64,000 bases of DNA, from assembly GCA_927407015.1 (NCBI GenBank), contig CAKMJT010000021.1, forward strand, positions 1-64,000, given 5' to 3'. The notes beneath the pieces were generated by a model. That model made no database searches. It was not told where the DNA came from and saw only the letters and a program-made list of their open reading frames with translations. Position numbers and translations under genes: made by a program. This stretch comes from an uncultured Proteiniphilum sp. GTDB taxonomy: Bacteria; Bacteroidota; Bacteroidia; Bacteroidales; Dysgonomonadaceae. Positions 36,401 through 55,480 of this stretch are shown one piece after another; the stretch's first letter is position 1, and the number at the start of each line of letters is the position of its first letter.

Positions 36401-38087
36401 GTAAATCCTGTAGATTCAGGCCATGTCCAAAATGTTTGCTCCACACGGGGAGACGTCCATTCATATCCCGGTCGCCATCCAAGGTAATAAAGTCCCGGGT
36501 TGGATCAATCTCTTTTGCCGTAAGTGTCATGGCCACCATCTTGTCATCCCATACATCAGAAACTGATTTCTCCGGTTTGTTCAGCAACGCGATCGCGAAC
36601 ATCTCATTTCCGGCGCTCCATCCGATGACGGATGGGTGGTTTCTGTCACGCAAAATTAACTGGCGAAAGTGTTCTCTTGAGCGCTGCCAGGTGATCTCTT
36701 CTTCCAGGTTAAGGCGTATGGAACTTCCAAATAACGCAGTTTCGTCGAGGACCATCAGTCCCATTTCATCAGCCAGGTCATAATAAACTCGGGGCCAGGG
36801 CTGTGCATGGGGACGGACAGCATTTCCACCAAAGTCTTTGATCATGGTATACCATGCCCAGGCAAAACGGCGGGAGCAGACATAGGGACCAAAAGGGTGC
36901 TGGATATCTCCAAAGCATTTTATTTTGCTTCCATTCAGATGAAATTCATCCCCTACAATTTTAAATTGTCGCCATCCGAACCGGGTCGCTTTGCGGTCAA
37001 CCGTTTGTTTACCACTCTTTATGTCTAACAAAAGGGTGTATAAATTGGGAGAATCGGGTGACCAGGTGTCCAGCTTGTTGTCAACGCTTGTCGACAGGTA
37101 AACCGTTTTTGTTTCACCCGGTTTCAATTCAATCTTTTGTGCGTTTACCTTCAATGCGGATGCATGTTCCAACTCCCAAGAAATTTCGGGAGCGAACAAG
37201 GGCTCTTTCGATGAGTTGTTGTTGATCCATTTGCGAATATCCCCTTCCAGACTTATCCCCCGTTTTTTCTTAGAACTGTTCGTGATGCGTACTTCCAGAT
37301 CCAACTCGTTGCGGTCGACCCATGGTTTCACAAAAACATCGGATATCCTTACTGCCGGCAGACCAAACAGATAAACATCCTGCCATATTCCAATCAGGTC
37401 GTCGGTGTTGGAGCCGGGAGGGTAAACCGCTCCGAACTTGTCATAAAGTGGATGACGTTTGTCAAATAATTTACTGTGTCTCAGTCCCAACAGCACTTCT
37501 GCTTTTTCACCCGGCTGGATGTATCCGGTAATATCCACTTCAAAAGGCAGATAGGAATCGAAATGGGTATAGACTTCCTTGCCATTCACATACACGACAC
37601 ATTCACCGGCCACTGCTTCGAAATGAAGGAAGACCTGCTTCGACTCCCATTCCGTGGGTATTGTCATGCTTTTGCGTAACCAGGCCATGCGCGCATTCAC
37701 CCAATGTTTGGGATAACTGGGATAATATACCGAGCTCGGGGCATAGGGGGAACGAGTGCCTTCTCCTACATCCTGACCGCCACCCCAGTTATTCACATTT
37801 ATGGGCGACGGGATCTTGATTCTGGTTTTCTCCCATGCTGTATCGACAGCCCCGGGGAGTGTGGGAGGAACACCGCTTCCGCTCTTCCAGCCGGCAGGCA
37901 AATGAATGATCTGCACATCCCAGTAGCCGTTTAGACAGATCTCGTCGCGAAAATCTTTTTCATACCTGTTTACCAGTCCCTCAGCAGGTGAGAAATCTCT
38001 TTGAAATAAAACCTGCCCCTGGACATGTGGAAGAGAAACAAGGAAGAACAAGAGACCGTAAATTATTTTCGATATAGAGACATCCAT
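33486..38087 (-). CDS. GH2 glycosidase fused to a right-handed beta-helix
   Basis: A 1533-residue secreted multidomain protein. Residues 1-24 are a signal peptide. GH2 follows: sugar-binding domain about 40-230, immunoglobulin-like about 230-380, TIM barrel from about 380. The acid/base is E495 in GNEM and the likely nucleophile E574 in VGESGA. Residues about 730-960 form a further domain matching the C-terminal part of the GH2 at 10504-13671. A beta-sandwich at about 980-1130 (GLVIRFSIPDGAHGEGTKGE) looks like a carbohydrate-binding module. Residues about 1140-1533 are a pectate-lyase-fold beta-helix (GKTIYIPAGKYEVFERIFIH, FRNNGDDDMASWSS). A GH2 and a beta-helix in one chain could attack two adjacent bonds. 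The beta-helix active site is not assigned. Confidence 0.9.
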   Translation of the reverse strand: MDVSISKIIYGLLFFLVSLPHVQGQVLFQRDFSPAEGLVNRYEKDFRDEICLNGYWDVQIIHLPAGWKSGSGVPPTLPGAVDTAWEKTRIKIPSPINVNNWGGGQDVGEGTRSPYAPSSVYYPSYPKHWVNARMAWLRKSMTIPTEWESKQVFLHFEAVAGECVVYVNGKEVYTHFDSYLPFEVDITGYIQPGEKAEVLLGLRHSKLFDKRHPLYDKFGAVYPPGSNTDDLIGIWQDVYLFGLPAVRISDVFVKPWVDRNELDLEVRITNSSKKKRGISLEGDIRKWINNNSSKEPLFAPEISWELEHASALKVNAQKIELKPGETKTVYLSTSVDNKLDTWSPDSPNLYTLLLDIKSGKQTVDRKATRFGWRQFKIVGDEFHLNGSKIKCFGDIQHPFGPYVCSRRFAWAWYTMIKDFGGNAVRPHAQPWPRVYYDLADEMGLMVLDETALFGSSIRLNLEEEITWQRSREHFRQLILRDRNHPSVIGWSAGNEMFAIALLNKPEKSVSDVWDDKMVAMTLTAKEIDPTRDFITLDGDRDMNGRLPVWSKHFGHGLNLQDLPEGLNKPLIVGESGATYYGKPTQLYSFAGDKAYASYHGRSEALAVDLYQNVTKMARPCLAYFSPSEVCWFGIEHLGLGYYDYSRLPDMRDGIFAGKMYKEGKPGYQFERIPPYVTTFNPGIDPGKPLYKPLPMFEALKAAIAGEPSPWDSYTEYKYTEKPAVHADKYRSSLFLGDENGLLHRQLEKIGVNFSGKPSRLLIVDAHTYQGGQEKLIEEVKREGGAILLMLRNQDISPAIGRLLPERMELTKREATALESNKQSAWGQHFDLPALYFSEIKGDKQILKCGLAGDLTTKGEVILTASRTDWSLFNDNPENRKCAQVVLYEQLQKPEGAALVSLNDGNASIIVSALDYTLSTKETFAFWRKLFPVMGVKLNTVSEWMKEESKKEHDLLMDGPVNGSLSQSVSFPEDTQKRGYYNRSYKRYEAESEKCFTTGLFLSPTSDQSELQSEASNSTATQLIEKGSYIQWKNEEAADGLVIRFSIPDGAHGEGTKGEIALYVDDKFVANITLDSYWAWQHALKTGQTYPDNLPAVNKFARMRFDDLRIKLDKKIPKGATFKLVKVDNNKIPYTIDFVELEAVPLPVTYESIPDQNKVSYHLSDGPLDQFIANNEGKTIYIPAGKYEVFERIFIHKPNTRIFGAGMWHTEIYFASPADNVLTYAKRGIQTNQDNILLDGLYITTANDRRYFVMPDGQNGGVGKGLMGSFGSNSTIRNVWIEHFECGGWITDTNHLTVQHCRFRNQYADGINLATGSKNSVVEFCSFRNNGDDDMASWSSGKIMCENITYRFCTAENNWRASSVGFFGGKGHKALNLLITDGMEAALRATTDFPGQPFSEEDTHLYENISIYNCGAQDGPLGYKGDIISGKTAGAIHLTSYGHYDLLNVQFSNIDIYHSRSDAIYLDSGKDKMMKNIRFKNIYIKGTGRYGISFNNAVGEASYCNMLFENVGDDNFGVMTEEFNFTKDKACSTR

Positions 38088-40981: not shown

Positions 40982-41962
40982 TCATCTCGTTTGTTGCACC
41001 ATTTGAATGGTTCCGTCTTCATTAAAATACAACTTATCCACACAGATAGAACGAAGGTTGCCGCGTCCAGAAATATCACTGCTGTGATAGAACACATACC
41101 ATTGACCCTTGTATTCCACCACCGACCCGTGGCTGGTGTCACTGCTCGTGGGTGCCAAAAATTCGCCCTGATAGGTCCAGGGACCCAGTGGTTGATTGCT
41201 TGTTGCATATACCATCCGGTTTGCACCCTTTCCATTTTCGGTATGATTATCGGAATAAGTAAGAAAATAGGTTCCATTTCTTTTAAAGACCCAAGTGGCT
41301 TCGTGGAAATCTTTCAGACCTTCCATGAAAGTCGAAGGTTCAGCCAATTGAGTCATGTTGTCGTGCATTCTGGCTCCGGCACATCTTCCTCCGCCGCCAT
41401 AATAAAAATAAGTCTGCCCGTCGTCATCGATGAAGAGGTTCGGATCGATCATGGCAAAGGTATCATCTCCCAACCCTTCGAGCCAATGATCTAGGACTAC
41501 AAAATCGGATGCGGGCTTGTCACTCACGGCGAATCCGATCTTCCAATTGTCGTTCCAGGGATCGTCGCTGGGATGGGGGAAATAAAAATAATATTTCCCG
41601 TTCCTGTACACACAATCGGGTGCCCACATAAATGTAGCACCTCCCGCAAGAGAAGGTTTTTTACCCCAGGGAACGTCTGCTGCATCCGCAATTTGACCGT
41701 GATCCGTCCAATTCACCATATCGTTTGTCGAAAAAACATGGTACTTGTCCATCAAGTCACAACCCCGGGGAGGATCGATATCATGCGAAGGATACACATA
41801 CAACCGTCCGTCTTCCCAGACACGGGCGGAGGGATCGGCAGTGTAAATATGGGTAATAAACGGATTGGACCCCAGAACAACGGGACTCGCGTTCTCTTTT
41901 TGCGCTTGACAGCCGGACAATGTAAAAACTACCACAGCTGCGGATAATAAAAATCTTCTCAT
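40982..41962 (-). CDS. GH43 glycosidase, lipoprotein
   Basis: A 326-residue single-domain GH43 enzyme with a lipobox (LSGC, Cys18). Catalytic pattern: D43 in YTADPSARVW, IDPNLFIDDDG and HEATWVFKRNG. It is nearly colinear with residues 45-360 of the GH43-GH95 fusion at 26328-29795, sharing runs such as PPRGCDLMD and DDPW/KDPW contexts. One likely arose from the other by duplication, with loss or gain of GH95. It is 43 bp downstream of a GH71/99-like gene. The released sugar (arabinose, xylose or galactose) is not resolved. Confidence 0.92.
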   Translation of the reverse strand: MRRFLLSAAVVVFTLSGCQAQKENASPVVLGSNPFITHIYTADPSARVWEDGRLYVYPSHDIDPPRGCDLMDKYHVFSTNDMVNWTDHGQIADAADVPWGKKPSLAGGATFMWAPDCVYRNGKYYFYFPHPSDDPWNDNWKIGFAVSDKPASDFVVLDHWLEGLGDDTFAMIDPNLFIDDDGQTYFYYGGGGRCAGARMHDNMTQLAEPSTFMEGLKDFHEATWVFKRNGTYFLTYSDNHTENGKGANRMVYATSNQPLGPWTYQGEFLAPTSSDTSHGSVVEYKGQWYVFYHSSDISGRGNLRSICVDKLYFNEDGTIQMVQQTR

Positions 41963-42005: not shown

Positions 42006-43481
42006 TCATTTTCTGATCGGGAGTGACTGACGCAAGGGAATTTCACCCCTCAACATCTTCCGGCCTTGTCCGGTAAGCCATAGATAATGATCGGTGGGCA
42101 AGTCATCTTCAATCCCTAGGAAGGAAATATTCAGTTCGTCGGGAACAAGTTTGCACCAATCCTTTTCGCCGGGCAGGTCGATTATCCGATTCGATCCGAT
42201 GCTGTAGCTACCTCCCCGATAGGTCACGTAATAGGGATTGTCGGGCACATTTCCCGGTACGTCTTTCTGATTCAATACCTTGTAAAGTGCGGTGCCTTCG
42301 TCTATTTCATCGAACATGGCCATATACAGCATCTGTGCTCCCGATTTGATGCTGTGGTACATTTGATCCCATAAAAACTGCCCTTTGTACCGGTCGTTTC
42401 TGGTGACATGATGCGGGTGCATATTCAAATCGGATGAGCCGGGGAAACAAAGTGGTGCGTACTCCACCTTGTTGGTTTTACACCACTGGATATCGTTTTC
42501 TATTAACTTGCGAAAATCGGGGAAATTGCCCATCCCGTATCGACCGACAAACCAGGGCATGATTACATCCGCCGATTTGATCACTTCATGTAGTTTGGGA
42601 TCGGATAACGCATCGTTTCTTCTTTCACGCCAATAAGTAGGTACCCCCAGCATGATGCTGTAACCCAATTTTTTTAATCCACCGACAAGAGACTCTACAT
42701 CTGTAAGTGAGAAAGGCCGTCCATCGTTAAAGCCGACCCCCCACAGGGTGATAAGTGGTTTCCCATTCTGATAAAGATAAAATTTCTGTTTTGTCCGGTC
42801 TTTTAATTGATACGCATTCATGATTGCCTGTGCATCCGCCAGTGTTTTACCCAGTCGTTCCGGAGTAAATCCACCCAGATCATACATGACACAAATGGCG
42901 CGCTGATGTGTATTTGAAGCTTCCATGGCATGCCGCAGCACCGTATCGAAATGATCTTTGCCATCGAGATTGTCTATGACTTCACCCACAAAACGTTGTA
43001 CAAAAGCCCCATCAATACCATATTCTTTCATCCATTTGAAATGGAGCAACACGGTGGATTTATCGTAATTACTGTAGACCTGTGCTTTTTGTCCATTGGG
43101 AAGGATAAAATTGCCGGGCGTATATTTCACCTCATACTCCCTCATATCGGGCCACATATCGATGCTGTTTCTGCGCACTCCCGGTGCAAACATCTCACTC
43201 TCCCTGTAATGATACCATTCGGTATTTTTGTGTTTGCTGTGTGAACAGTTGCCGCCCGGTGCACAAAACCAGCCCTGATATCCCGCCATAACCAGTCCAC
43301 GGTAAGAATCGAAGGGTTCACCCTTTTGATGTGGACTGAAATCAGGTTTATTGAAAATCTCACCCATCACCGGAGGAGGTTCCGGCGGCTTCACCAGATC
43401 CGCAATTTCTTTTTCTCCGCTATTACAGGCAAATAAGAGAAACAAGATGTGTAGTATCGTAAGACTGTAAAAAGTTTTCAT
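42006..43481 (-). CDS. Glycoside hydrolase family 71/99-like protein, lipoprotein
   Basis: A 491-residue lipoprotein (lipobox LLFAC, Cys19). The core motifs repeat those of the paralog at 21107-22372: YRGLVMAGYQGWF, HFKWMKEYGIDGAFVQRF, VMYDLGGF, LITLWGVGF and AMFDEIDEGTALYK. It is longer, with extra segments around residues 75-100 and 415-450. It is 11 bp downstream of the GH3 gene. A surface lipoprotein with an endo-acting fold placed early in the enzyme run would suit initial chain cutting, but this is inference. Confidence 0.86.
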   Translation of the reverse strand: MKTFYSLTILHILFLLFACNSGEKEIADLVKPPEPPPVMGEIFNKPDFSPHQKGEPFDSYRGLVMAGYQGWFCAPGGNCSHSKHKNTEWYHYRESEMFAPGVRRNSIDMWPDMREYEVKYTPGNFILPNGQKAQVYSNYDKSTVLLHFKWMKEYGIDGAFVQRFVGEVIDNLDGKDHFDTVLRHAMEASNTHQRAICVMYDLGGFTPERLGKTLADAQAIMNAYQLKDRTKQKFYLYQNGKPLITLWGVGFNDGRPFSLTDVESLVGGLKKLGYSIMLGVPTYWRERRNDALSDPKLHEVIKSADVIMPWFVGRYGMGNFPDFRKLIENDIQWCKTNKVEYAPLCFPGSSDLNMHPHHVTRNDRYKGQFLWDQMYHSIKSGAQMLYMAMFDEIDEGTALYKVLNQKDVPGNVPDNPYYVTYRGGSYSIGSNRIIDLPGEKDWCKLVPDELNISFLGIEDDLPTDHYLWLTGQGRKMLRGEIPLRQSLPIRK

Positions 43482-43492
43482 ACCTCATGACG

Positions 43493-46360
43493 TTATTTAT
43501 CCTCATCAATCGTTAACTTCTTATATTTTGTAACGAATGTCAGATTTTGTATTTCTGAATCCTTTTCAATGTCAAAATTGATTTTCGTTTCTTGTCCCGG
43601 ATCCAGTTCAAAATGATGCACCTCATCCGCCCGGCTATCGTTCATATAGAGATATATTTTACCCGTATCGGTTAAGTTTCCTTTATTTTTAACCGTCACA
43701 AACACGTTTTTCTCGTGGTTCACGAGATTCTCCTCCATACCCGTGTACAGGATATCAAAATCAGCAGAAAATGAGAAGGGATACTCGATTATTCCATTCA
43801 GTCCCTCTGATGCTTGCTGAAAGCCCACACTGTGTTTGATCCTGTCGGCAGCTTTATAAGAAGGGCTTTTTCCGCCCACCATGATTTTGAATTCACCCGG
43901 TTCAACAACACGATCCATTTTGTCATTCAGTAAAGAGAGATCGTAAGGGGACAGTTTAAATATCACTTCCCTGGTTTCCCGGGGTGCTAACGTTATTCTT
44001 TCGAAATCTTTCAACTCCATTACCCGCGTTTTCACACTTGCATACATGTCGGTCATGTACAGTTGAACCACTTCGTCTCCTTTCCGCTCACCCGTATTGG
44101 ATACCTTTACTTTTACAAGCACGTTCCCGTCCGATTGTACTTCGGTTTTCAAATCGGTATAGCTGAACTGTGTATAGCTCAATCCATATCCGAACGGATA
44201 AAGCGGGTAATATTCCATATCAGCATATTCGTACCTGCGACCCGATGTTTTAAAATTATAATAAAGGGGTAATTGTCCCACGTGACGTGGAAAGGTCATG
44301 GGCAGACGTCCCGCCGGGTTATAATCTCCGAAGAGGACATCGGCTGTAGCATGCCCACCCTCCTGTCCCGGGAGCCAGTTCACTAGAATGGCTTGACAAT
44401 TTTCGGCTGCATGGGAAAGATTATAGGGTCGACCGGCCTGTAAGACCAATATTATCGGTTTTCCCGTTTTGCAAACGTCCTCCAGCATCTTTTGCTGGTA
44501 TCCCGGCAAGTCAAGCGTCGCCAAGTCATGATTCTCGCCTGAGGTCTTTACCAATCCCTCGATATTCTCACTCGTGGAACAATCACCCAACACAATGACA
44601 ACGACGTCTGACCTGTCGACTACAGCCAATACCTTATCAATATCATATCTTTCCTGACTAAAAAACTCGCAACCTTTCTCATAGAGAACTTTCGTATTGG
44701 GCCCCACAGCAGTTTTGATACCTGTCAAAACAGACTTCAGCTGACCGGGTTGCAGTTGTTGTGTGTAATCTCCCGGCTGCAGATCATCGGCGCCGGGGCC
44801 GATTACCGCGATGGTATTGATCGACTTTGACAGTGGCAGGATATTGTTTTTATTTTCAAGCAACACGACAGCCTGTCGTGCTGCTTCGCGTGCTACGTCC
44901 TTATGCTCGGGACTATTCCATCCCGGATATATCAGATCCCAATCCAAAGGTTTAGAGGGATTATGCTCGAAGAGTCCATTTCTATATATCACACGCAGCA
45001 AACTTCGACAAACGTTGTCGAGGTTTTCCCTATTTAATTCTCCCTTTTTTGCGGCTTCGATCACCTCCCTGTTATTGTAGGTATCCCCACAGTTGGTGGC
45101 AATACCTGCCGCTAAGGCTTGATTGGCTGCTTCGACAACATCTTTTGCGGTATAATGCTTTCTGCTGGTGAGGTTACCCAGAGCGCCACAATCGCTGACT
45201 ATATAACCATCGAATCCCCACTCTTCCCGTAAAATGCCATGAAGCAGCTCCTCGCTTTTGGCAATGGGAACGCCCAAATAGTCGGAATAAGCCATCATAA
45301 TCGACTGGCAATCGTAGTGCTTCACCACGTGGCGAAATGGAACCAGATGAACCTCACGAGCCTCTCTTTCCGATAAGCCGATATCATGTGAATCCCTTCC
45401 TCCAAGAGGTGCTCCATGCATTCCAAAGTGTTTTGGTGTAGTCAACAACCCTTTGGACTGGTAACCTTTGATCCAGGCTCCTCCTATTTGAGAAACAAGT
45501 ACAGGATCTTCTCCATAGGTCTCTTCACACCGTCCCCAGCGAGCATCTTGGGCAACGTCCAGAACAGGTGACCACGCTTGTAATGTATGGGCACTGACTG
45601 TTTCATCTCCAATAATCATGGCTACTTTTTCAACCAGCTCTTTGTTCCATGTTGCACCCATGGCTATGGATTGGGGAAATATGGTCGCACCGCTTCCATA
45701 GGAGTACCCATGGATCGCTTCTACTTTATTTAAAAAAGGAATTCCCAAACGGGGTATACCAGGTATTCCCCAACCTTCCCTGAGCAATTCCATTTTATCT
45801 GCTGGAGTCATGGCGGCCAACAACAACTCAACTCGCTTTTCTACTGGAAGTTGCGAATCTCTCCAAGGTTGTTCAACCTTTTCTTCCACGACGTTATTCT
45901 TTTCTTCAAAAACAACATCTATCTCATTGATAGATATGCTTTTGTTCACAATTCCACTTTTGAATGATATTCTTACATGGACACCGTATTTAGGAGAAAA
46001 ATTTATTGTAAACCGATTATTTCCTTTTACAGTGTAATCAATGGCATCGCCAAGATTCATTGGATCATAGGTGACAAAAATATCAACCAGATCCCTCAAT
46101 TCTCTGTTTGAAATACCTTTCGAATCAATTACCAATCCTTTTACATCACTCGGCGTTTGCAATGTAAACATCAAAAAATGATTGTCTTTCACATGATCTG
46201 AAGAAAGCACCCAACCGGTAGAAGGATTACCATCCAACGTCAAGACCGACTGATTGGCATTGACTGAGGCTGATACGGCAACAATTCCCTTTTCTTGTGA
46301 TAAAACCGGCGCAAAAGAAAACAGAGAAAAAAGGATAATACAAAATAATGCTTTATTCAT
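43493..46360 (-). CDS. GH3 beta-glycosidase with N-terminal discoidin-like domain
   Basis: A 955-residue secreted GH3 enzyme with a different layout from the two others here. After the signal peptide (to about residue 21), residues 25-150 form a beta-sandwich resembling F5/8C modules (TLDGNPSTGWVLSS). GH3 then starts at about 165; nucleophile D390 lies in IVSDCGALGN, and there is no PA14 insert (LVNWLPGQEGGHATADVLFGDYNP is continuous). After the fibronectin-III-like domain an extra beta domain of about 110 residues ends the chain. It is the first enzyme gene after the SusC/D module, 153 bp past the DUF3823 gene, with a large inverted repeat between. Confidence 0.93.
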   Translation of the reverse strand: MNKALFCIILFSLFSFAPVLSQEKGIVAVSASVNANQSVLTLDGNPSTGWVLSSDHVKDNHFLMFTLQTPSDVKGLVIDSKGISNRELRDLVDIFVTYDPMNLGDAIDYTVKGNNRFTINFSPKYGVHVRISFKSGIVNKSISINEIDVVFEEKNNVVEEKVEQPWRDSQLPVEKRVELLLAAMTPADKMELLREGWGIPGIPRLGIPFLNKVEAIHGYSYGSGATIFPQSIAMGATWNKELVEKVAMIIGDETVSAHTLQAWSPVLDVAQDARWGRCEETYGEDPVLVSQIGGAWIKGYQSKGLLTTPKHFGMHGAPLGGRDSHDIGLSEREAREVHLVPFRHVVKHYDCQSIMMAYSDYLGVPIAKSEELLHGILREEWGFDGYIVSDCGALGNLTSRKHYTAKDVVEAANQALAAGIATNCGDTYNNREVIEAAKKGELNRENLDNVCRSLLRVIYRNGLFEHNPSKPLDWDLIYPGWNSPEHKDVAREAARQAVVLLENKNNILPLSKSINTIAVIGPGADDLQPGDYTQQLQPGQLKSVLTGIKTAVGPNTKVLYEKGCEFFSQERYDIDKVLAVVDRSDVVVIVLGDCSTSENIEGLVKTSGENHDLATLDLPGYQQKMLEDVCKTGKPIILVLQAGRPYNLSHAAENCQAILVNWLPGQEGGHATADVLFGDYNPAGRLPMTFPRHVGQLPLYYNFKTSGRRYEYADMEYYPLYPFGYGLSYTQFSYTDLKTEVQSDGNVLVKVKVSNTGERKGDEVVQLYMTDMYASVKTRVMELKDFERITLAPRETREVIFKLSPYDLSLLNDKMDRVVEPGEFKIMVGGKSPSYKAADRIKHSVGFQQASEGLNGIIEYPFSFSADFDILYTGMEENLVNHEKNVFVTVKNKGNLTDTGKIYLYMNDSRADEVHHFELDPGQETKINFDIEKDSEIQNLTFVTKYKKLTIDEDK

Positions 46361-46513: not shown

Positions 46514-47305
46514 TTAATTATTTGGAACCTCAATTTTAACTATCGGTGAATAAACATGCTTGCGATAGGTGTCGTCAACAGCTGCTCCTGCACGTACATA
46601 GTAGGTGTATCCATTTTTAACTTGCATCAGAGCAAACTGATATTCAGGAGTTGTATTGTTACCCGGACCTTTACTGATTAAAGTCGCCCAACTATTATCA
46701 TTGTTATTGGCAGGCCGAATCCTGACGTAATCATTGTACTCGGGTATACCGATGCTGCTGTCCGCACCGTTGCCGCAATAAGGCGTGAGACTCAGAAAGG
46801 GTCTCAATTCGTAGAGCCGGGGGAGTATTTTCCCATCTTTCTCCAATAGCGGAGCTTTTACCTTAAAAGACATCTTCACGTAATACTTCGCATCATTCGA
46901 AATCAATTCAGCCTTGTAATCCACGATCTGTATATAGGGAGTAACCGTGAAGTTATGCTCCAGCGCTTTTTTCAATTCCAGATTCTTGATCGTGTCCATG
47001 GGCCAGAAAGGACCATTGTAGGGAAGCATATCGTAAGTTCCGGCGAAAAGCTTAGTGTTTTGATATGTTCCATCCTGCTTTATCCGCAAATCCTGAAAGT
47101 TAGATGCGCCACCTTCTAGTCCAGTCCAGGATCTTTCCCAAATACGAATTTGCCAGTCGTTCTGGGACGAAAGCAGCGGTTCATTCGTATATGAATCCAT
47201 TACTGTTCCCTTCCAGACGCAATTGGGTTCTTCCCAATTATCTAATTCAAAACAAGAGGAGAAACTAAACAGTATCACTCCCATTAAAAATAGTATTTTT
47301 TTCAT
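46514..47305 (-). CDS. DUF3823 surface lipoprotein
   Basis: A 263-residue lipoprotein (lipobox FSSC, Cys18) with the DUF3823 pattern: a short Asp/Asn-rich leader (LDNWEEPN), then WKGTVMDSYTNEPL, the start of a transthyretin-like beta-sandwich, and a second beta domain in the C-terminal half. Such genes lie directly after susD in many PULs and are believed to be surface glycan-binding or scaffold proteins of the SusCD complex. It is 27 bp downstream of the SusD gene. The binding role is inferred from position and family. Confidence 0.85.
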   Translation of the reverse strand: MKKILFLMGVILFSFSSCFELDNWEEPNCVWKGTVMDSYTNEPLLSSQNDWQIRIWERSWTGLEGGASNFQDLRIKQDGTYQNTKLFAGTYDMLPYNGPFWPMDTIKNLELKKALEHNFTVTPYIQIVDYKAELISNDAKYYVKMSFKVKAPLLEKDGKILPRLYELRPFLSLTPYCGNGADSSIGIPEYNDYVRIRPANNNDNSWATLISKGPGNNTTPEYQFALMQVKNGYTYYVRAGAAVDDTYRKHVYSPIVKIEVPNN

Positions 47306-47332: not shown

Positions 47333-49336
47333 TTAACGGAATGGATTTTGGGGTAAGAGGTTCGGGTTTTTATTGATTTCGCCCGAAGGTATTGACTGAT
47401 AATAACAGATTCTATTAGCAGTCCAAGTTCGATTACCCATTTCACGCTCATCCAGATAAATATATTTATCTTCATCCAGCACGTAATAACAGGAAAGAAT
47501 TCGGGGTCTAAACTGTTCTAGAACTTTGTCAGCCACTCTCCAGCGCCGCAAATCCCACCAGCGGTGATTTTCACCCCATAATTCACGATATCGCTCATCC
47601 CGGATAAACTGTAATTCGCTGTCGATGGGGTAAACCGTGGTTGTTTTTTCATAATCCCAGGCTATCAGGTCGGCAGGATCATTTGAAATATCAAGGTTGG
47701 TGCAACCTGCTCTTTCCCTGATTTTACGAATATAGGTATTGGCTTCGTCCTTGTGACCTAATTCATAAGCGGCTTCTGCATGATTCAGATAAACTTCGCC
47801 TAAGCGGAATGCTACCCAAGGCTGGAAACTGGCATGTTCAATAATTTTACCTTTCTCCATTTTTGGGTTGATATATTTTTGTACATATGCACCCGTGAGG
47901 CAATTGTTCTCTCTGCCGGTAGAAGTTCTTGTTCCGTGTGCACCAATCACATTGATGTAATAAGTGCCCCCTTCTTCCTTTACCGTGATGTTATGAATAT
48001 TGGCAGCTTCCTGGGCGGTAAGCGTATACTTCGTGTTATAATCATTACTCAGTAAACGATTACCATTCGTATTGTGCGGAGACTCGTTGTTCAGCCCATC
48101 TATTACAACGTCTGCTTCCCACTGGAAAGTTTTGTACAAACCGCGACGAATTTCAAATGATACATCCTGAAATACATCCCCATTAAAAAACATGCTACCG
48201 CGCATACGGGGTTCCATACCGTTTTTGATATCAGCAGGGCTGTCCCAACGCTTCGGGGTTCCATCTTCTGCAACAAGATCCGGAAAGCCTTCAAATGACT
48301 GCATGGTTGTGAGGGAAGGATAAGCCTGCGCACCCACAAAATTTGACATACTGGGATTCGGAAGCATCAAGGCATCCCAGTTGTGTCCAATCAGGTAAGC
48401 ATTGCGATTAAATATGTCGTGGTGGAGATAATTCTTGAAAAAGATCGTTTCCTTTGACTCGGTGTCCAAAAGCATCTCATGGAAATTTACTGCCAAATCG
48501 GTATACTCATTGTATAATTGGTAGGGACCGGACTCGATTAGCTCTTTGCTGGCATCGTATGAATATTGGAAAAACTCATTGGCCTTGCTGGCATCAATTC
48601 CTGCTAATCCTTTCTCATAAGCTTCCTCACCTGCAAAAGGCACATACTGGGTATATTTTGCAATCGTTGCTGCATATAGCATCAGACGCGACTGCAAGGC
48701 AAGAGCGGTCCATTTGGTACCACGATATTTATCTGCCTTTTCGGTCATATTCTCTGACGCAAACTTCAAATCTTCGTAAATGAACTTATAACAGTCATAT
48801 TCGGTGTCACGTTTCACCCGCAAAGTCTCTACATCCGCCATGGGGTCCTGTACTTCACTGATGATGGGTATTCCACCGTAACGTTTCACCATACCCGAAA
48901 AAATGAATGCGCGCAGAAAACGAGCTTCGCCCAATAGTTCATTAAATTTTTTCTCCGTATAGAGATGTTTATATTTCTCAAAGTTATTGATAAACATGTT
49001 CACATCGCGTATACGATCATATCGCCAGTAATCGTTGCCGTTGTTATTCACCTGGGGATCTCCCACATACTCGGCCGACATGGTTGCCTGTTGTTGTTTC
49101 GGAGACTCCCATGTACCCCATGCATCACCGGGGCGATAACCGTTATTCTGTTGATAATGAAAATCCTCAATGGGTAACCATCCGTATAAACCTGCAAAAT
49201 AGGTTTGTACGCCTGCCTCCGTACCGAAAAATTCAGCCTCTGTAAACTGTCCTTTAGGTTCCAAATCTAAATCTGCACACGAATAGAAACCACAACAAAA
49301 GGCTATGAATACAATGATAATTTTTTTTATTTTCAT
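47333..49336 (-). CDS. SusD/RagB-family outer-membrane glycan-binding lipoprotein
   Basis: A 667-residue lipoprotein (lipobox FYSC, Cys20) starting ADLDLEPKGQFTEAEFF, the usual SusD opening. The N-terminal tetratricopeptide-like region contains LGEARFLRAFIFSGMVKRYGGIPI, and the C-terminal RagB/SusD part contains FRLGEVYLNHAEAAYELG and the closing ERYRELWGENHRWWDLRRW. It forms the hinged lid over SusC at the cell surface and captures the oligosaccharide. It is 13 bp downstream of susC and clearly cotranscribed. Confidence 0.97.
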   Translation of the reverse strand: MKIKKIIIVFIAFCCGFYSCADLDLEPKGQFTEAEFFGTEAGVQTYFAGLYGWLPIEDFHYQQNNGYRPGDAWGTWESPKQQQATMSAEYVGDPQVNNNGNDYWRYDRIRDVNMFINNFEKYKHLYTEKKFNELLGEARFLRAFIFSGMVKRYGGIPIISEVQDPMADVETLRVKRDTEYDCYKFIYEDLKFASENMTEKADKYRGTKWTALALQSRLMLYAATIAKYTQYVPFAGEEAYEKGLAGIDASKANEFFQYSYDASKELIESGPYQLYNEYTDLAVNFHEMLLDTESKETIFFKNYLHHDIFNRNAYLIGHNWDALMLPNPSMSNFVGAQAYPSLTTMQSFEGFPDLVAEDGTPKRWDSPADIKNGMEPRMRGSMFFNGDVFQDVSFEIRRGLYKTFQWEADVVIDGLNNESPHNTNGNRLLSNDYNTKYTLTAQEAANIHNITVKEEGGTYYINVIGAHGTRTSTGRENNCLTGAYVQKYINPKMEKGKIIEHASFQPWVAFRLGEVYLNHAEAAYELGHKDEANTYIRKIRERAGCTNLDISNDPADLIAWDYEKTTTVYPIDSELQFIRDERYRELWGENHRWWDLRRWRVADKVLEQFRPRILSCYYVLDEDKYIYLDEREMGNRTWTANRICYYQSIPSGEINKNPNLLPQNPFR

Positions 49337-49349
49337 ATTGTTCAGTTAT

Positions 49350-52300
49350 TTAGAATTTAAAACTTACTCCAACTGTATAAGTTTTATTGTTGGGATATAC
49401 ATACATTCCTGCTGCGCCACCTTCAGAGCCCCCTGCTCTTTCCGTCGAGCTTGGGCGTTCCGGGTCAATATCCTTATCCAATTTTGAGAAAGTCAACAGG
49501 TTATATCCATTCAGATAAATCCGGATATCCTTAATTTTCGCCTTGGTCAACAAGGATTTGGGTATGGAGTATCCCAGCTCCAGCGTTTTCATACGAACAT
49601 AAGAAGCATCCATAATTCCATTTGAATTATCTCTACGAGAGCCGCCGCCTGTAAGGGGATAGTACCCCGAAATCCATTCGGTATCCGGATGCCAAAAATC
49701 GGCATTCGGGTCTATCGGGTGCCATCTGTCCAGGAACCAGTTCAAACTGTTTTGTCCACCAAAAGGCAACGCTTCTGTAAAGACTTCCGATAATTGGGTA
49801 TAAACTTTGTGAGCACCTTGGAAATTGGCAGCGAGATCAAAACCTTTATAATTTGCAGCCAATGTAAACCCGTAATTGAAATAAGGCAATCCTCTGGTAG
49901 CCATCGGGCGATTATCACCTCCATCCACAATGCCGTCGCCATTCCAGTCAGTCAGATACCAGTCGCCGGGCAAAGTGGCCTGACCGATGGGATATGTTGT
50001 ATAGTTGCGGATTTCTTCCATGCTTGTAAACATTCCTTTTGATTCATTTGACCACCAGAAATCGTCACTCGGAAATCTCCCATTGTACCGGTTCCGCCAT
50101 TGATCATACGAGTTACTGGCTGGGGACTCTTGCAGATACAACCACTTCCTTCGTGTAGATGAAATCTGTCCTGAGATAGAATAATTAAAATCTTCGATCC
50201 GACTGCGATAGATCAACTCAAATTCCCATCCATAATAGCGGTCACTATTCATGTTTACTTGCGGTAAAACTGCACCAACAGTACCGGGAATAACCGCTGT
50301 ATTGGTAGCCATTAAACCATCGCGATCGCGTCTGAACAGATCAAAAGTTCCACTTATTTTGTTTCCCAGGAAGCCAAAATCCAATGCCACGTTTTGAGAA
50401 GTGATCTCTATCCATGTCTTCTGCAGATTTGGAATAGCGGTAGCGCGCAGCCCCTGTGATCCCACGCCCTTGGAGTAAATCCATCCAAAATCACCATGGG
50501 TTTGGTATCCCACAAAAACTTCCGGATAATTGCCGGCATTTGCTTCATCTCCTAATTTACCGTGTGATACCCTTAACTTCAGGTTGGAGATAAAATCAAA
50601 ATTATTCTTGATGAAATTTTCTTCGCTTACACGCCATGCAGCCGCTACTGATGGGAAGAATCCCCAACGCTTTTCGGCAGCCCAGCGTGAATTTCCTTCA
50701 TAACGGCCAATAAGGCTGAGCATATATTTTCCGACGTAATCGTAGTTCACCCTTCCAATGTATGCACTTTGTGAACGATCACCAGGTGTACCGCCCGACC
50801 CGGTTTGCCCACTGGTCTCACCAGCAAAAAGGTCCTCTGCGTTCAGTCTCAATATACGAGAAGCACTGAAGTTATCCCATTCCGAATAATTTTCTTCATA
50901 AATGATCTTCCCGTCGACATTGTGATCTCCAAAAGTATTTTTATAAGCCAAAGCCAATTGCATAGTGGTTCCGGTAGAATAGCTTGCGGAACGTGTGGCA
51001 GTATTGGTTGGACCATTTTCCAGTTTCGCCAATACATATGAATCGGATTCCTCTACATATTTATAGGTACTATACATTTGTTTGTATGTTTTTGTATCCG
51101 GTGCATTGACAGAATAGTCATAAAATGCAGATGCCGACAAGCCTTTTACTCCGGGTATATCGTAGTTGAGTGACAAGGATCCATTCATTCTGCGGTCTTT
51201 TCTGTGGGTGTATCCTGTATACTTTTCATCCATTTTCCCTATCAGGTTTGTGAACTCATTGTTCCATGGCGTGTACCCATTGAGAAATTCAGGATTATCA
51301 TTGGCATAGAACGGAGTGCCTGGAATGGCAAGAAAAGCCACTTTATAATTGTCCCACAGACCAGCGGCTGGTTCATGTACGGCTCCTATGACTCCTCCTA
51401 AAGAAACTCTCATGCTTAGACGGTCGGTGATTTTCGCGTCGATGTTCGAACGTAAATTGTACCTGTCTGCCCATAATGAGCCACTGGCATATGCACCATC
51501 TTGTTTCAAATAACCCAAACTGAAGAAGTAACGCAGTGTTTCTGTACCTCCATTAATACTCATATTGTGCTGAGTCTGAGGAGTTAGTTTGTTAAAGACG
51601 CGATCCTGCCAATTATATTCACTTGCATTGAGCGCTTCAACCATTTCTTCGTCGGAATGTATCGGCGACTTGCGAGAGAAATACATATTGTTGAAGTCCC
51701 TGTAATTTTGTTCATTCCTCAGTGTTTTCCATTCATGAACAGTATAGCCTCCGGGGATAAAAATCATTTCTTGCATGGTAATATTTCCCGAGTAGCTGAT
51801 ATCTACCTTCCCATTTTGTGAAGTACCACTCTTTGTTGTAATTAGCATGACTCCGTTGGCTGCTCGAATACCGTAAATTGCTGCCGATGCATCTTTTAAC
51901 AAAGATATGGATTCAATTTCTTCCGGATCCATGCGTGCAAAATCGTCTTTACTGCGTGCTACACCATCAATTACAAACAACGGTTCGCCAAAACCACGGA
52001 CATCAATCACCGTGTTGTATTGCCCTGGTTGTGATGTCCTTTGTGTGATACGCAATCCTGGCATTTTACCACTCAACATGTTCACCACGTTCTCATTCTT
52101 CGTGATCGTCAATTCTTCGCTGTTCACCGATGAAATCGAGCCGGTTAACGTTGCTTTTCTTTGTGTTCCATACCCTGTAACAACTACCTCTTCCAGAGCC
52201 TGCACATCTTCTAACAATGTGACGTTGATGTTTGCTCTGTTGTTTACATTTATTTCTTGAGGAATGTACCCCAGAAAGGAAACTACAAGAGTTGCATTCC

Positions 52301-52511
52301 CCGGTATATTCAGGGAAAAATTGCCATCAATATCTGTTGCCGTCCCGATTGTTGTCCCCTTTTGGGTTACATTGGCTCCAATGATAGCTTCTCCTGTGTT
52401 GTCCGTTACTTTTCCAGTAACCTGAATGTTTTGAGCAAAGGCAGATAAAGAAATTGTACAAAACAAGATGTACATAATTCCTCTTGATAGATTTAAAATT
52501 TTTCTTTTCAT
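49350..52511 (-). CDS. SusC/RagA-family TonB-dependent outer-membrane transporter
   Basis: A 1053-residue SusC-type importer. After the signal peptide (to about Ala26), residues 28-105 are a carboxypeptidase-D-like sandwich (VTGKVTDNTGEAIIGANV), followed by the TonB-box/plug entry LEEVVVTGYGTQRKATLTGS. The plug domain carries FVIDGV and IRAANGVMLITTKSG. The remaining 800 residues are the beta-barrel, ending VGVSFKF. No N-terminal STN domain is present, so it is not an ECF-sigma/anti-sigma-type transducer. It imports the oligosaccharide with energy from TonB and is the first gene of the module. Confidence 0.97.
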   Translation of the reverse strand: MKRKILNLSRGIMYILFCTISLSAFAQNIQVTGKVTDNTGEAIIGANVTQKGTTIGTATDIDGNFSLNIPGNATLVVSFLGYIPQEINVNNRANINVTLLEDVQALEEVVVTGYGTQRKATLTGSISSVNSEELTITKNENVVNMLSGKMPGLRITQRTSQPGQYNTVIDVRGFGEPLFVIDGVARSKDDFARMDPEEIESISLLKDASAAIYGIRAANGVMLITTKSGTSQNGKVDISYSGNITMQEMIFIPGGYTVHEWKTLRNEQNYRDFNNMYFSRKSPIHSDEEMVEALNASEYNWQDRVFNKLTPQTQHNMSINGGTETLRYFFSLGYLKQDGAYASGSLWADRYNLRSNIDAKITDRLSMRVSLGGVIGAVHEPAAGLWDNYKVAFLAIPGTPFYANDNPEFLNGYTPWNNEFTNLIGKMDEKYTGYTHRKDRRMNGSLSLNYDIPGVKGLSASAFYDYSVNAPDTKTYKQMYSTYKYVEESDSYVLAKLENGPTNTATRSASYSTGTTMQLALAYKNTFGDHNVDGKIIYEENYSEWDNFSASRILRLNAEDLFAGETSGQTGSGGTPGDRSQSAYIGRVNYDYVGKYMLSLIGRYEGNSRWAAEKRWGFFPSVAAAWRVSEENFIKNNFDFISNLKLRVSHGKLGDEANAGNYPEVFVGYQTHGDFGWIYSKGVGSQGLRATAIPNLQKTWIEITSQNVALDFGFLGNKISGTFDLFRRDRDGLMATNTAVIPGTVGAVLPQVNMNSDRYYGWEFELIYRSRIEDFNYSISGQISSTRRKWLYLQESPASNSYDQWRNRYNGRFPSDDFWWSNESKGMFTSMEEIRNYTTYPIGQATLPGDWYLTDWNGDGIVDGGDNRPMATRGLPYFNYGFTLAANYKGFDLAANFQGAHKVYTQLSEVFTEALPFGGQNSLNWFLDRWHPIDPNADFWHPDTEWISGYYPLTGGGSRRDNSNGIMDASYVRMKTLELGYSIPKSLLTKAKIKDIRIYLNGYNLLTFSKLDKDIDPERPSSTERAGGSEGGAAGMYVYPNNKTYTVGVSFKF

Positions 52512-52606: not shown

Positions 52607-52638
52607 AAAAGATAACTTGTGCTAGTTTGAATCACAAA
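52607..52638 (-). promoter_or_regulatory. Predicted susC promoter
   Basis: On the minus strand, TTTG (plus-strand CAAA at 52635-52638) is separated by 20 bp from TATCTTTT (AAAAGATA at 52607-52614). The latter differs from the TAnnTTTG consensus at one base. Transcription would start near 52600, giving a leader of about 90 nt before the susC ATG. A slightly imperfect -7 element is expected for an activator-dependent promoter. Confidence 0.5.
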
Positions 52639-52810
52639 GAAAGTTACACACGCTTAAAAGAGTAATTAAAATTTCGATTAATACCAACATTATTTTTATA
52701 ACTTTTATTATTTTAAAGAATAAAGAAACAATTATCCTTAATAAATTGATTAAAATATTAGATTAAGCTTATGATTGAATAACCAAGCCGAAATAAACGA
52801 AAAAGGCCTC

Positions 52811-52936: not shown

Positions 52937-55480
52937 TCAGCGTAATTTGATCAAATCATCGAAAATCAAATAAGTTTTTTCAGCGAGTAAGGTTTCGTAA
53001 TCTGTGGAGAATTTGTTAAAGGCATCTAATGCCTGTTTCTTGTGTCCCATGTGAAATAAGGCGTAACATTTAAGCGAGATGGCATCTTCATCAATGTTAT
53101 CGTGTAATAAAATAACATCCGCCATTTTTAACAATAGAATTAAATCTTTCTTAACCTCTTCATGTTCCTTGTATTGAAGCAATGTCTCGATAAGCGTATT
53201 GGTGAATTCAGTTTGGTATGATTCAAGCCACTCAAATTGTGCATATGGCAAAAGTTTACCGGTCAGTGCCAGATCTGCTAATTCCATTATAATATTTTTC
53301 TTGAAATTAGAATTATTTTTCAACAGATTCATCAGACTCTGCACTTTGACATAATCACAAAAAATATGTTCAAGACCCTGAATCGTTTGACAACCATCAT
53401 CATTGATTATTTTGATTTCGTCAAACGACTTAAGAATTACTCTCAATTTATTGATATATACATTTCGGTTATTTCGGGCACTGTTATCATCCTTATCAAA
53501 CCACAAGATATTCTTTAACTCCTGGGAGGTTGTTCCTTTACCATTTTTGATGGTGTTCATCAGCAACAACAGAAACAATTGAAATGTCGTAGGTGCAAAA
53601 TCACCAGTAATGTCATTTCCTTTGCTGTCAATAATTTTAAAGTTACCCAACAAATAGATGGATGCCGGTTTATTCTGTTCCATGGGTTGAATCAGTTCCG
53701 AATAGCTCGAAAAAACAGGAAATTCATAAACCAGTTTATCTCTCCTTCGTTTCTTTTTCATTAAAATATACACGAATCCAGCTAAGAGTATTAAAACTAA
53801 AATTACCCAATATACAACCAAAGAATATTTATTTTTTCCTGTTTTCCGTAGTACGTCCTGTTCTAATTTAGGAGGATATGCAATTGAAAATATCTCAATT
53901 TTAGATCCGGTTGTAATATAGGTATATAGTTCGGATCTCTGTTCATCCAGAAAAAGGGTAGCCCACGATTCAACATCCAGGAAATTATAGGGAATAGAAT
54001 CATTAAATACAATAAATTCCCCATCATCTATGTTGAATTGGGCTAACCGAAGATGGGTATTGTGATACATATTGTTATATATCAAAGTGTAAAAACAATT
54101 CGACTCTTCATCATATACCAATGTCTCAATGGGCACAAAGGGTGTTTCGGGGGTAGGAAGCGTCCAAATCTTCTCAAAAGTATACTCATTCAAATCAAAA
54201 TAAAAAAGGTCGTAATAAAATTTCGGAGACAATTCCTGGTGACCGGTTTGACTGCCATAGCCGCCAAATACCAATGCTTTCTCTTTATTAATGATTGTTG
54301 ATCCACTTAGATAACGGGGGCCGATCTGATCTCTTCTGTCGATTGTTTCCCAGAAGTTTGACTCCCGGTTGTAATGATGGACATTACTTGAATAGGTATA
54401 ATGTCCATATCCCGATATTGTAATCAAAGAACTGTCGACAGGAGAAATAAACCGATTCTGATGAGCATACAATGACTCAATCGTTTTATTTGAATTTTCA
54501 GACCATGTATGTGTATCAAAATTAAAAATATTAATTCTTTCTGTATCAAAATCATAAGACCACAACTGATTGAAATATTCATTATAAATAATTTGCCTGG
54601 CGTAGTTATCCTCGTAAGGTTTTCCTTCCAGATAAGGTATAGTATCAACCGTAAAGGTGTCCATATTGACACAATATAGCTCTTTATCGTTCAGGAAAAA
54701 AATTCGCCTGTTCAGTAAATCATGAGTACTCCCTTTGATGTTCTCCATCTCCAGGTCCATGACTTTTTTCCATTTCACATGCCGGTCGATAATCCAGATG
54801 GGATTGGAGACCCAGGCTTCAGCATTTTTCAAATCATCATATGCTTTATCGTTGAAATGTTCTGACAATCTCCAGTATCTGCAAAGCTCACCATCGTTGA
54901 ATAATCGTACATTTCTCAATGACATGGGGCATACATCCACACTCACAAAATGTTGCAGATAAAGGGCACCAAAAACAACTTTAAACAGGTGCGTATTGAT
55001 AGATGAAGGAAATGTAGCCTCCTGCTTCACTTCATTAATAGATAAAGAGACACGGGAATTGGGTATATCTACATCAAGCCTTATTTTTACCCATTGATCA
55101 TATCCAACTCCCGGTAACTGCTCCCATTTAAAGGAAAGAAGCGTCTGCTCTTTGTAAACCAGCCAAAAATTGGATGAGGTGGATGCAAGGTTCGATACCA
55201 AATCAATATTGGTGGCATCATCTCCCACCAACCTGAAAATATAACCGTAAAAACCATCTCCTTCCCTGAAGTTAGCCTCAAATTCAATCGAAAAATGATC
55301 AGAGAATTTAAAAAAATCACGGGGTGTCAGATTAAAAGAAGTACGTTTGTCCTGGATGACCTCATGAGAAGAAAAATACAAACCGGATTGCAAATCATTC
55401 TGACCAGAGATCTTCAATGAGATGACAAAAAACAGCAGATAAATTACTGTTTTGCAACGATTCATATTTTCAAAAATCAT
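52937..55480 (-). CDS. Membrane-spanning sensor-regulator: LamG-like + beta-propeller + TM + SARP-type DNA-binding
   Basis: An 847-residue one-component sensor. Layout: signal peptide (to about residue 27; ATG at 55465 is an alternative start giving MNRCKTVIYLLFF); ConA/LamG-like sandwich about 30-200 (FSIEFEANF, WVKIRLDVDIPNSRVSLSIN); Kelch-like beta-propeller about 215-530 (RYLSGSTIINKEKALVFGGYG); one membrane helix about 549-573 followed by a basic stop-transfer run (KKKRRR); then an OmpR/SARP-like winged helix about 603-700 (IYLLGNFKI, TTFQLFLLLLM, NNRNVYINKLR) and a BTAD-like helical region about 705-847. The sandwich and propeller would sit in the periplasm and the DNA-binding part in the cytosol. 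It has no histidine kinase, receiver or AraC domain. Its place directly upstream of susC makes it the likely activator of this PUL. Confidence 0.85.
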   Translation of the reverse strand: MIFENMNRCKTVIYLLFFVISLKISGQNDLQSGLYFSSHEVIQDKRTSFNLTPRDFFKFSDHFSIEFEANFREGDGFYGYIFRLVGDDATNIDLVSNLASTSSNFWLVYKEQTLLSFKWEQLPGVGYDQWVKIRLDVDIPNSRVSLSINEVKQEATFPSSINTHLFKVVFGALYLQHFVSVDVCPMSLRNVRLFNDGELCRYWRLSEHFNDKAYDDLKNAEAWVSNPIWIIDRHVKWKKVMDLEMENIKGSTHDLLNRRIFFLNDKELYCVNMDTFTVDTIPYLEGKPYEDNYARQIIYNEYFNQLWSYDFDTERINIFNFDTHTWSENSNKTIESLYAHQNRFISPVDSSLITISGYGHYTYSSNVHHYNRESNFWETIDRRDQIGPRYLSGSTIINKEKALVFGGYGSQTGHQELSPKFYYDLFYFDLNEYTFEKIWTLPTPETPFVPIETLVYDEESNCFYTLIYNNMYHNTHLRLAQFNIDDGEFIVFNDSIPYNFLDVESWATLFLDEQRSELYTYITTGSKIEIFSIAYPPKLEQDVLRKTGKNKYSLVVYWVILVLILLAGFVYILMKKKRRRDKLVYEFPVFSSYSELIQPMEQNKPASIYLLGNFKIIDSKGNDITGDFAPTTFQLFLLLLMNTIKNGKGTTSQELKNILWFDKDDNSARNNRNVYINKLRVILKSFDEIKIINDDGCQTIQGLEHIFCDYVKVQSLMNLLKNNSNFKKNIIMELADLALTGKLLPYAQFEWLESYQTEFTNTLIETLLQYKEHEEVKKDLILLLKMADVILLHDNIDEDAISLKCYALFHMGHKKQALDAFNKFSTDYETLLAEKTYLIFDDLIKLR

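Follow-up and report, generated by a model that had tools for sequence, protein, structure and literature searches.

A membrane-anchored SARP-fold protein beside a polysaccharide utilization locus of an uncultured Proteiniphilum: anatomy, relatives and predicted operators

Introduction

Polysaccharide utilization loci (PULs) underlie much of the role of the Bacteroidota in carbon turnover, and the switch that controls many of them is unknown. The window analyzed here is a stretch of 64,000 nucleotides of DNA, positions 1 to 64,000 of contig CAKMJT010000021.1 (assembly GCA_927407015.1), from an uncultured Proteiniphilum sp. of the Dysgonomonadaceae. Its minus strand encodes a large predicted regulator, followed by a susC/susD pair and a long run of genes for glycoside hydrolases (GH) and related enzymes (Table 1). 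The regulator consists of a periplasmic beta-sandwich and Kelch-type propeller, a single membrane helix, and a cytoplasmic part with the fold of SARP regulators, whose DNA-binding domain is best known from Streptomyces antibiotic regulators. An initial annotation had read this protein as a transmembrane one-component regulator of the adjacent PUL, and that interpretation as a whole is partly supported by the analysis that follows.

Table 1. Features of the regulator gene and its locus, in coordinates of the window.
Feature	Position	Strand	Remarks
Regulator gene	52937-55480 (stop codon included)	minus	847 residues; ATG start, open frame, full-length homologues
Signal-peptide-like N-terminus	55403-55480	minus	residues ~1-26; hydrophobic in the translation and in aligned homologues
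Periplasmic beta-sandwich	54806-55384	minus	residues ~33-225; AlphaFold strands 48-225, most ten-residue blocks at a predicted local distance difference test score (pLDDT) of 80-95
Kelch-type propeller	53879-54769	minus	residues ~238-534; about six blades; Pfam, PDB profile, Foldseek, strand order
Single membrane helix	53747-53830	minus	model helix 551-578, then KKKRRR
OmpR-type winged helix	53378-53662	minus	residues ~607-701; helix 665-686 with NNRNVYINKLR; weak RprY match
BTAD-type helical domain	52985-53356	minus	residues ~709-832; model and fold search
Predicted operator 1	52651-52681	minus	three TTAA direct repeats, period 12 bp, upstream of susC; conserved in orthologous loci L029 and L030
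Candidate promoter	52607-52638	minus	TTTG at 52635-52638, 20 bp spacer, TATCTTTT at 52607-52614
Predicted operator 2	33395-33425	minus	12/12 spacing; TTTG at 33379-33382; upstream of GH92 gene
SusC (TonB-dependent receptor)	49350-52511	minus	425 bp downstream of the regulator; predicted target
SusD	47333-49336	minus	follows susC; predicted target
DUF3823 protein	46514-47305	minus	locus member
GH3	43493-46360	minus	Pfam
GH99-like (weak)	42006-43481	minus	Pfam
GH43	40982-41962	minus	Pfam
GH92 enzyme	31126-33381	minus	predicted target via operator 2; likely start is the in-frame ATG at 33336

The regulator and the order of its parts

The gene boundaries in the initial annotation are correct; it left unstated that the gene lies on the minus strand, and the plus strand across the same interval holds many stop codons. 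The signal peptide that it described was retained in part: the N-terminus does carry a hydrophobic stretch, but helix 2-31 was modelled with low confidence, and the segment is therefore called signal-peptide-like only. The membrane helix and the KKKRRR that follows it were borne out. Regulator hydropathy peaks at residues 554-572 (mean 2.85), in agreement with the model helix. The 22 family members that were aligned all have a membrane helix in the corresponding position, two of them with an additional, weaker peak. The basic linker beyond it (residues 578-599) is poorly ordered in the model. A whole-protein AlphaFold model drawing on 22 homologues reached a mean pLDDT of 85.1 and a predicted template modelling score (pTM) of 0.58, and the latter value leaves the mutual placement of the domains uncertain.

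A Pfam scan of the 847-residue protein assigned only Kelch repeats, and kinase, receiver and AraC domains gave no match at E<=1, in agreement with the earlier statement that the parts of a hybrid two-component system are lacking. Relatives with the same domain order exist; the order is kept in full-length proteins down to 23-32% identity, which argues that the architecture is not a product of chance. The regulator is thereby confirmed as a real protein made up of a beta-sandwich, a Kelch propeller, a membrane helix, and a cytoplasmic winged helix with a helical domain.

The two periplasmic domains differ in how well they can be named. A strand-rich domain is indeed modelled in the first, but the ConA/LamG label attached to it was not confirmed. 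Pfam listed no LamG or ConA match to the sandwich in 22 family members, a profile search against the PDB gave no match up to E 10, and hhalign comparison with the LamG parts of two relatives returned a probability of 0.2. The LamG/ConA identity of residues 33-225 was dropped after these negatives, which come from profile comparisons, a search with the fold of the domain alone being outside their scope. The Kelch propeller, also predicted earlier, is clear: all 22 aligned family members match a Pfam Kelch model at E<=0.05, both a profile search and Foldseek match it to Kelch propellers in the PDB, and in the model the strands of residues 238-534 form about six four-stranded blades.

For the cytoplasmic part, the C-terminal 274 residues were modelled from 39 sequences with a pLDDT of 90.9 and a pTM of 0.84. 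Foldseek comparison of this model with 350,542 PDB chains gave six matches at E<=0.001, three to AfsR and three to EmbR (best E-values 9.4e-7 and 1.3e-5, respectively), so that the winged helix and BTAD-like helices proposed for residues 600-847 are upheld by predicted fold. By sequence they are recognized weakly: BTAD (PF03704) scores 14.0 bits in the regulator, the curated cut-off being 22.1, and is matched at E<=0.1 in 5 of 39 module sequences. When a profile was iterated from the C-terminal module, it also picked up four proteins from other Bacteroidota genomes (L076-L079), and Pfam finds BTAD above its cut-off in all four. The helix with the pattern NNRxVxIxKLR ranks with the best-conserved segments of the module, its W, N, V and L columns being invariant or nearly so. 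As judged from the modelled fold, then, the earlier label "SARP-type" is right, though sequence profiles stay below threshold.

Association with SusC/D and GH92

SusC and SusD were detected with profiles grown from the window proteins, in loci of 20 kb each where the contig allowed. The 20 control regions were taken from contigs that also carry a regulator gene, and all 20 were kept in the main counts, including one (L106) that holds another regulator copy and overlaps the test locus L194 and two (L102, L108) that lie tens of kb from a copy. L099 and L029 are the same place, entered under the first handle in the SusC/D count and under the second in the array count. SusC or SusD was present in 18 of 23 Bacteroidia loci and in 6 of 20 control regions (P 0.002), and an adjacent susC/susD pair in 13/23 and 3/20, respectively (P 0.006); within this class, homologues of the regulator lie near susC/D genes more often than control regions do.

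Among the 85 genes of at least 120 residues that lie within two of a regulator, the TonB plug was found 9 times, GH92 6 times, SusD_RagB 4 times and the GH99 family 3 times. The 79 control genes gave two plug and two SusD matches, with GH92 absent among the best 25 of 126 families, and the 48 neighbours in other classes gave no glycoside hydrolase family among the best 25 of 59. When 15 genomes were mapped, GH92 lay within 30 kb of 15 of the 27 regulator genes (2.5 expected) and GH43, a weak comparison family, within 30 kb of at least 7 among the matches listed (again 2.5 expected); for both, the significance is optimistic, because the expectations use rounded genome sizes, ignore contig ends and treat paralogues as independent. 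The GH92 association, taken as an association, points to alpha-mannosyl-containing substrates.

Arrays of TTAA repeats

Upstream of susC, an alignment of the window with L029 and L030 revealed a conserved island within otherwise diverged DNA, and this island holds TTAATCGAAATTTTAATTACTCTTTTAAGCG, which consists of three TTAA units in 12-bp steps (operator 1). A second site of this kind precedes the GH92 gene (operator 2); 12 of the 19 letters outside TTAA are identical between the two, as counted by eye. A degenerate 31-base pattern drawn from both sites and allowing up to three mismatches has two matches in the 3.18 Mb genome, both at this locus, and one match in the relative G230. No TTAA array lies in the window between the regulator start and the next gene, and autoregulation is therefore not proposed.

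Similar arrays recur across the family. When the regions upstream of SusC genes were searched, three TTAA at 10-13 bp were found in 9 of 20 such regions in focal loci (the rows for the window, L029 and L030 being left out) and in 0 of 6 in control loci; shuffled versions of the SusC-upstream regions contained such a triple in 0-11% of cases per region. A scan of the 24 focal loci (477 kb) for TTAA every 11-12 bp gave 22 arrays, of which 21 are intergenic and distributed over 18 loci, against 2 arrays in the 20 control regions (398 kb), one inside a gene and one intergenic. The intergenic control array lies 118 bp upstream of a 734-residue gene at a GH92 position, on a contig that carries a regulator gene. 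When the four loci that had suggested the motif (window, L029, L030, L062) are left out, intergenic arrays are present in 14/20 focal loci and 1/20 controls (P 2e-5). The 11-12 bp range was fixed only after the 10-13 bp scan, in which six loci (L082, L084, L085, L086, L090, L096) showed arrays; without these six as well, the count is 8/14 against 1/20 (P 0.001).

The arrays occupy gaps next to or near the regulator gene and include exact 11-bp steps of up to five units (L084, L085). Their flanks are asymmetric: 38 of 85 units have C at +5, but only 10 of 85 have the mirror-image G at -2, and the consensus is about (A)TTAAT(C). Given this asymmetry, the repeats are direct. Thirteen loci of other classes or with variant proteins yielded 5 TTAA arrays, 3 of them intergenic. 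At L061 (7929-8516 and 8740), a TTAA array precedes a 196-residue gene with FecR and SusC/SusD genes as neighbours; this gene may encode an ECF (extracytoplasmic function) sigma factor, in which case the regulator might feed a sigma cascade.

Promoter spacing and the composite pattern

Bacteroidota promoters have TTTG as their -33 element and TAnnTTTG as their -7 consensus. In the candidate susC promoter, TATCTTTT is near that -7 consensus. This promoter is not recognizable in L030, and a -7-like box at that distance was not found in most other sites, including operator 2.

Of 27 oriented sites, 11 have the start of TTTG at an offset of exactly 15 nt from the last TTAA. This offset was first noticed on these same sites, and no other offset among the 70 nt examined occurs more than twice. 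Without the two window orthologues, the count is 9/25 (P 7e-13 versus other offsets). The arrays in L087, L089 and L090 were read both ways, two of the reverse readings (L087 and L089) having been included only once the offset had been noticed; omission of the L087 reverse reading, in which TTTG does lie at 15 nt, gives 10/26 (P 2e-14), and omission of the two orthologues as well gives 8/24 (P 3e-11). A composite pattern of three TTAA, 15 nt and TTTG has 22 matches in the 13 genomes with the full-length form, against 1 for the reversed control (P 9e-7), a partly circular comparison in that the pattern was derived from some of these loci. The three variant genomes gave 0 matches, against 3 for the reversed control.

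Two further observations concern this pattern. In G166 it occurs (C2:309165-309209) just past a GH92 match on the same strand and on its upstream side (C2:306851-308335); this is a possible distant target, and a regulator copy was not found on that contig. TTAA arrays that resemble these in part of their letters, and that also have TTTG at 15 nt, were seen in genomes without a match to the family in the order sample (G179:C73:69365, G271:C14:12543, G222:C37:32269, G210:C262:12273, G110:C77:37845), where they are possibly operators of a related regulator.

Distribution and variant sensors

Searches of an order, a phylum and a class sample scored two or three candidates per genome, so that extra or weak copies may be missed; every candidate was scored in 18 chosen genomes and 5 further genomes. 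The genome of the window has one regulator copy, and a relative from Seramator thermalis (Bacteroidales, Dysgonomonadaceae; locus L029) is 80% identical over its entire length. In the order sample, at least 18 of 295 genomes have a match and at least 13 have the sandwich-Kelch form, one of the 13 (G223) having a shortened propeller. Two others (G023, G137) match the winged helix only, in 238-residue frames whose N-terminus looks response-regulator-like, and three (G262, G143, G121) have matches with other N-termini. At least 47 of 395 genomes match in the phylum sample, most in the Kelch or C-terminal part only, and at least 10 have full-length matches (that of the window included) in addition to one split gene; the sandwich-Kelch-SARP order is rarer elsewhere in the Bacteroidota than in the order sample. 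In the class sample, at least 5 of 395 genomes match at E<=1e-30, one of them in the C-terminal part only. At G426:C1:1152946-1155455 (L071), a full-length family gene is apparently split into two frames.

When the C-terminal profile was used to search the 18 chosen genomes again, 31 genes were recovered, with a maximum of six in one genome. Among 40 module proteins, one (L070_10) is soluble and one (L066_0) is without a clear inner helix. The module of helix, winged helix and BTAD also carries other N-termini. Two variants, at L073 (7092-9632, plus) and L074 (9441-12032, minus), bear LamG (Laminin_G_3 at 3.4e-16 and 1.3e-19, respectively) after a region of about 380 residues, which may resemble phosphatidylinositol phospholipase C; the N-terminal region of L073, and of L073 only, also has a weak TIM-barrel match (1e-3). 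Short variants have 479 (L075) and 500 (L072) residues, and a 646-residue form adjoins a full-length one. The paired module genes lie at L068 (7328-11819) and L069 (7366-11857), with 853 and 646 residues, and at L070 (8532-12070), with 808 residues and a soluble 259; a four-unit TTAA(T/C)C array lies between the two L070 genes. None of the eight variant or soluble-SARP loci L072-L079 (four of each) has SusC/D nearby. Of the 27 genes scanned next to L072-L075, five encode GFO/IDH/MocA oxidoreductases and some encode transporters.

Other genes of the locus

Beyond the GH43 gene at 40982-41962, the minus strand continues with a pectate-lyase-like gene, a GH2/alpha-1,3-glucanase-like fusion, GH92, a GH43/GH95 fusion and GH3 with PA14, and then with a second weak GH99-like gene, an oxidoreductase, GH43, a second GH92, phosphoesterases, GH2, GH3, GH28 and a sulfatase. 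The fusions join GH43 with GH95 (26328-29795) and GH2 with alpha-1,3-glucanase-type catalytic domains (33486-38087). Since the run reaches the window start, which is also the contig start, the locus may be cut there. Between 277 and 52511, the minus strand has 27 main frames; Pfam recognized no regulator among them, and four (1612, 4306, 7397, 29807) had no match at all. Upstream of the regulator, on the same strand, are PspC and PadR genes, with a terminator-like stem between these two and the regulator. Terminator-like sites around the regulator number 4, against 2.6 expected from shuffles, a weak excess; a sigma-70 promoter scan around the gene gave 14 hits, against 14.1 expected, and was not used.

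Interpretation

Taken as a whole, these data are best explained if the membrane-embedded SARP is a one-component activator of its own PUL, and we consider this quite probable. The anatomy, predicted fold and conservation of the protein, its association with SusC/D and GH92, and the arrays with their fixed spacing are observed or computed. On this model, the N-terminal sandwich and Kelch propeller would be periplasmic and would recognize an oligosaccharide released from the polymer, possibly one with alpha-mannosyl units. Ligand binding would alter how the protein pairs or clusters in the membrane, and the periplasmic signal would pass through the membrane helix. Several winged-helix/BTAD units would then align cooperatively, head to tail, on the observed arrays of 11-12 bp TTAA repeats directly upstream of the -33 box and would there recruit RNA polymerase, much as AfsR does. 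The predicted targets in the window are the susC-susD-GH operon and the internal GH92 transcription unit.

A number of results weigh against this model. The C-terminus stays below the Pfam cut-offs for BTAD (by the margin given above) and for Trans_reg_C. SusC/D was found in none of the nine loci from other classes, which argues that the module is not exclusively a PUL device. The enzymes of the window are mixed (GH2, GH3, GH28, GH43, GH92, GH95, sulfatase), and GH76, considered as a sign of alpha-mannan, has few matches, with 8 of 15 genomes at E<=0.001 and 6 of 15 above the cut-off. The TTAA core is palindromic, and the DNA around it AT-rich. In 15 regulator genomes there are 98 exact 11-bp TTAA triples where the reversed control has 40, and in the genome of the window 1 where the control has 3; the bare repeat is not specific, since many of the listed triples lie far from a regulator gene. 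In the 279 genomes without a match to the family, the composite pattern also occurs, with 139 matches (about 0.5 per genome) against 167 for the reversed control. Finally, of five loci fetched after the motif had been fixed, two have strict arrays and one of these is unconvincing; the convincing one (L196) precedes a 575-residue gene that is followed by susC/D. A weight-matrix scan of promoters reached a score of 14.5 or more in 9 of 11 loci (the five new ones and six focal loci without a strict array) and also in 3 of 20 controls, at a threshold chosen after the scores were seen (P 0.0005 there; rank test P 0.0016). Leaving out L106, whose site is shared with L194, gives 9/11 against 2/19 (P 0.0002); a version that drops three controls was picked after the scores were seen and is not relied on. 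Five of 13 other-class or variant loci (L065, L070, L072, L073, L075) also reach 14.5.

Alternative explanations

The strongest competitor, which we nevertheless regard as rather unlikely, keeps the same protein and changes its mode of action: the DNA-binding part would be freed from the membrane by regulated proteolysis, as happens with some other membrane-bound factors, and the periplasmic domains would gate the cut rather than clustering. The single helix and the poorly ordered basic linker would suit such a release, as would the monomeric state of the AfsR SARP domain before it meets DNA, described in the available portion of PMC10936776. A clustered form in the membrane would fit arrays of three or more repeats just as well.

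It is also unlikely that the TTAA arrays are bound by some other, co-travelling regulator, with the membrane SARP controlling something else or acting at other DNA. The composite pattern in the 279 family-free genomes is in keeping with this idea, and some of the family-free arrays look non-random, for example those with repeated TTAATATT units. Against it are the excess of the composite pattern in the 13 full-length-family genomes, partly circular as that comparison is, the position of the arrays in gaps next to or near the regulator gene, and the absence of any other regulator recognized by Pfam in the window locus.

That the protein is a repressor released by its ligand is very unlikely. 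Operators beside a promoter would allow it, and one-component sensors can repress, but a last repeat ending 15 nt upstream of the -33 box, as in 11 of 27 sites, is an activator position, and the SARPs treated in the available text of PMC10936776 and PMC5930380 activate. Least probable of all is a degenerate SARP-fold domain that has lost DNA binding and serves as a sensor scaffold or partner, for instance of an ECF sigma factor: its sequence is far removed from those of known SARPs and the L061 array does precede a gene beside FecR, but the NNRxVxIxKLR helix is highly conserved and operator-like arrays accompany the module.

Significance

Activation from the membrane by a SARP could be more than a property of this one locus. 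Rather tentatively, with the balance of our judgment slightly against it, we suggest a fourth class of PUL regulators beside hybrid two-component systems (HTCS), SusR and ECF/anti-sigma pairs. These would be transmembrane SARPs with swappable periplasmic sensors (sandwich-Kelch, LamG plus a large N-terminal domain, or a short single domain); the Kelch form would read alpha-mannoside-containing glycans. Activation would come about by head-to-tail assembly from the membrane on phased TTAA repeats, placed at a fixed 15 nt before the -33 box of Bacteroidota promoters. If so, PULs have an additional switch, SARP-type activation exists beyond its soluble actinobacterial setting, and nature has placed a glycan-to-promoter sensor within one polypeptide. 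The predicted DNA code (TTAA repeats at 11-12 bp, 15 nt before TTTG) would help to list target genes from sequence, and the GH92 association offers a hint to the substrate.

Comparison with known systems

The initial annotation likened the regulator to ToxR and CadC, in which an OmpR-type winged helix is tethered by one membrane helix. The analogy stands loosely, in that the one-helix tether is common to both, but the topology is opposite: the DNA-binding part is N-terminal in ToxR/CadC and C-terminal here, and ToxR/CadC are not known to carry a BTAD. With Kelch and galactose-oxidase-type propellers it shares the fold and the Kelch repeats, which are here joined to a transcription factor. No account of this architecture was found in a literature search that covered titles and abstracts, with preprints and most subscription papers outside its scope.

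Closer in function is SusR, which is likewise a one-component protein of susC/D loci with a periplasmic sensor and a cytoplasmic DNA-binding part (PMC3878776, from the portion available, as for the cited statements on SusR and HTCS that follow). In both proteins the DNA-binding part is C-terminal. The SusR DNA-binding domain is described there as having no significant similarity to other known factors, and the predicted SusR-like motif consists of two sites 67 or 77 bp apart (PMC3878776); here the sites number three or more, in steps of 11-12 bp, and the fold is that of a SARP. Bacteroides HTCS sites average 21 bp apart (PMC3878776), and the regulator is unlike these systems, those for alpha-mannan included, also in the absence of a Pfam match to their kinase, receiver and AraC domains.

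The nearest relatives in fold are the SARPs themselves (AfsR, EmbR, PimR, DnrI), in which, as here, an OmpR-type winged helix precedes an all-helical BTA domain. In the available portions of PMC10936776 and PMC5930380, SARPs have operators made of direct repeats with a period of 11 bp (or 22 bp) close to the -35 element, so that promoter-side direct repeats about one helical turn apart are common to SARPs and to the predicted arrays of the regulator. The repeat core associated with the regulator is TTAA and its period 11-12 bp (12 bp in the window). The AfsR box overlaps the -35 element, whereas the last repeat here lies 15 nt upstream of the -33 box at the sites with the fixed offset; a 3' repeat 8 bp from the -10 element or overlapping the -35 element, as in SARPs, was not found. 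AfsR has cytoplasmic ATPase and TPR parts and small SARPs consist of the SARP domain alone (PMC10936776), unlike the regulator, in which a membrane helix and a periplasmic propeller precede the SARP part. SARPs are a known kind of regulator, and what is new here is the placement of one in the membrane and its probable use in the control of a PUL.

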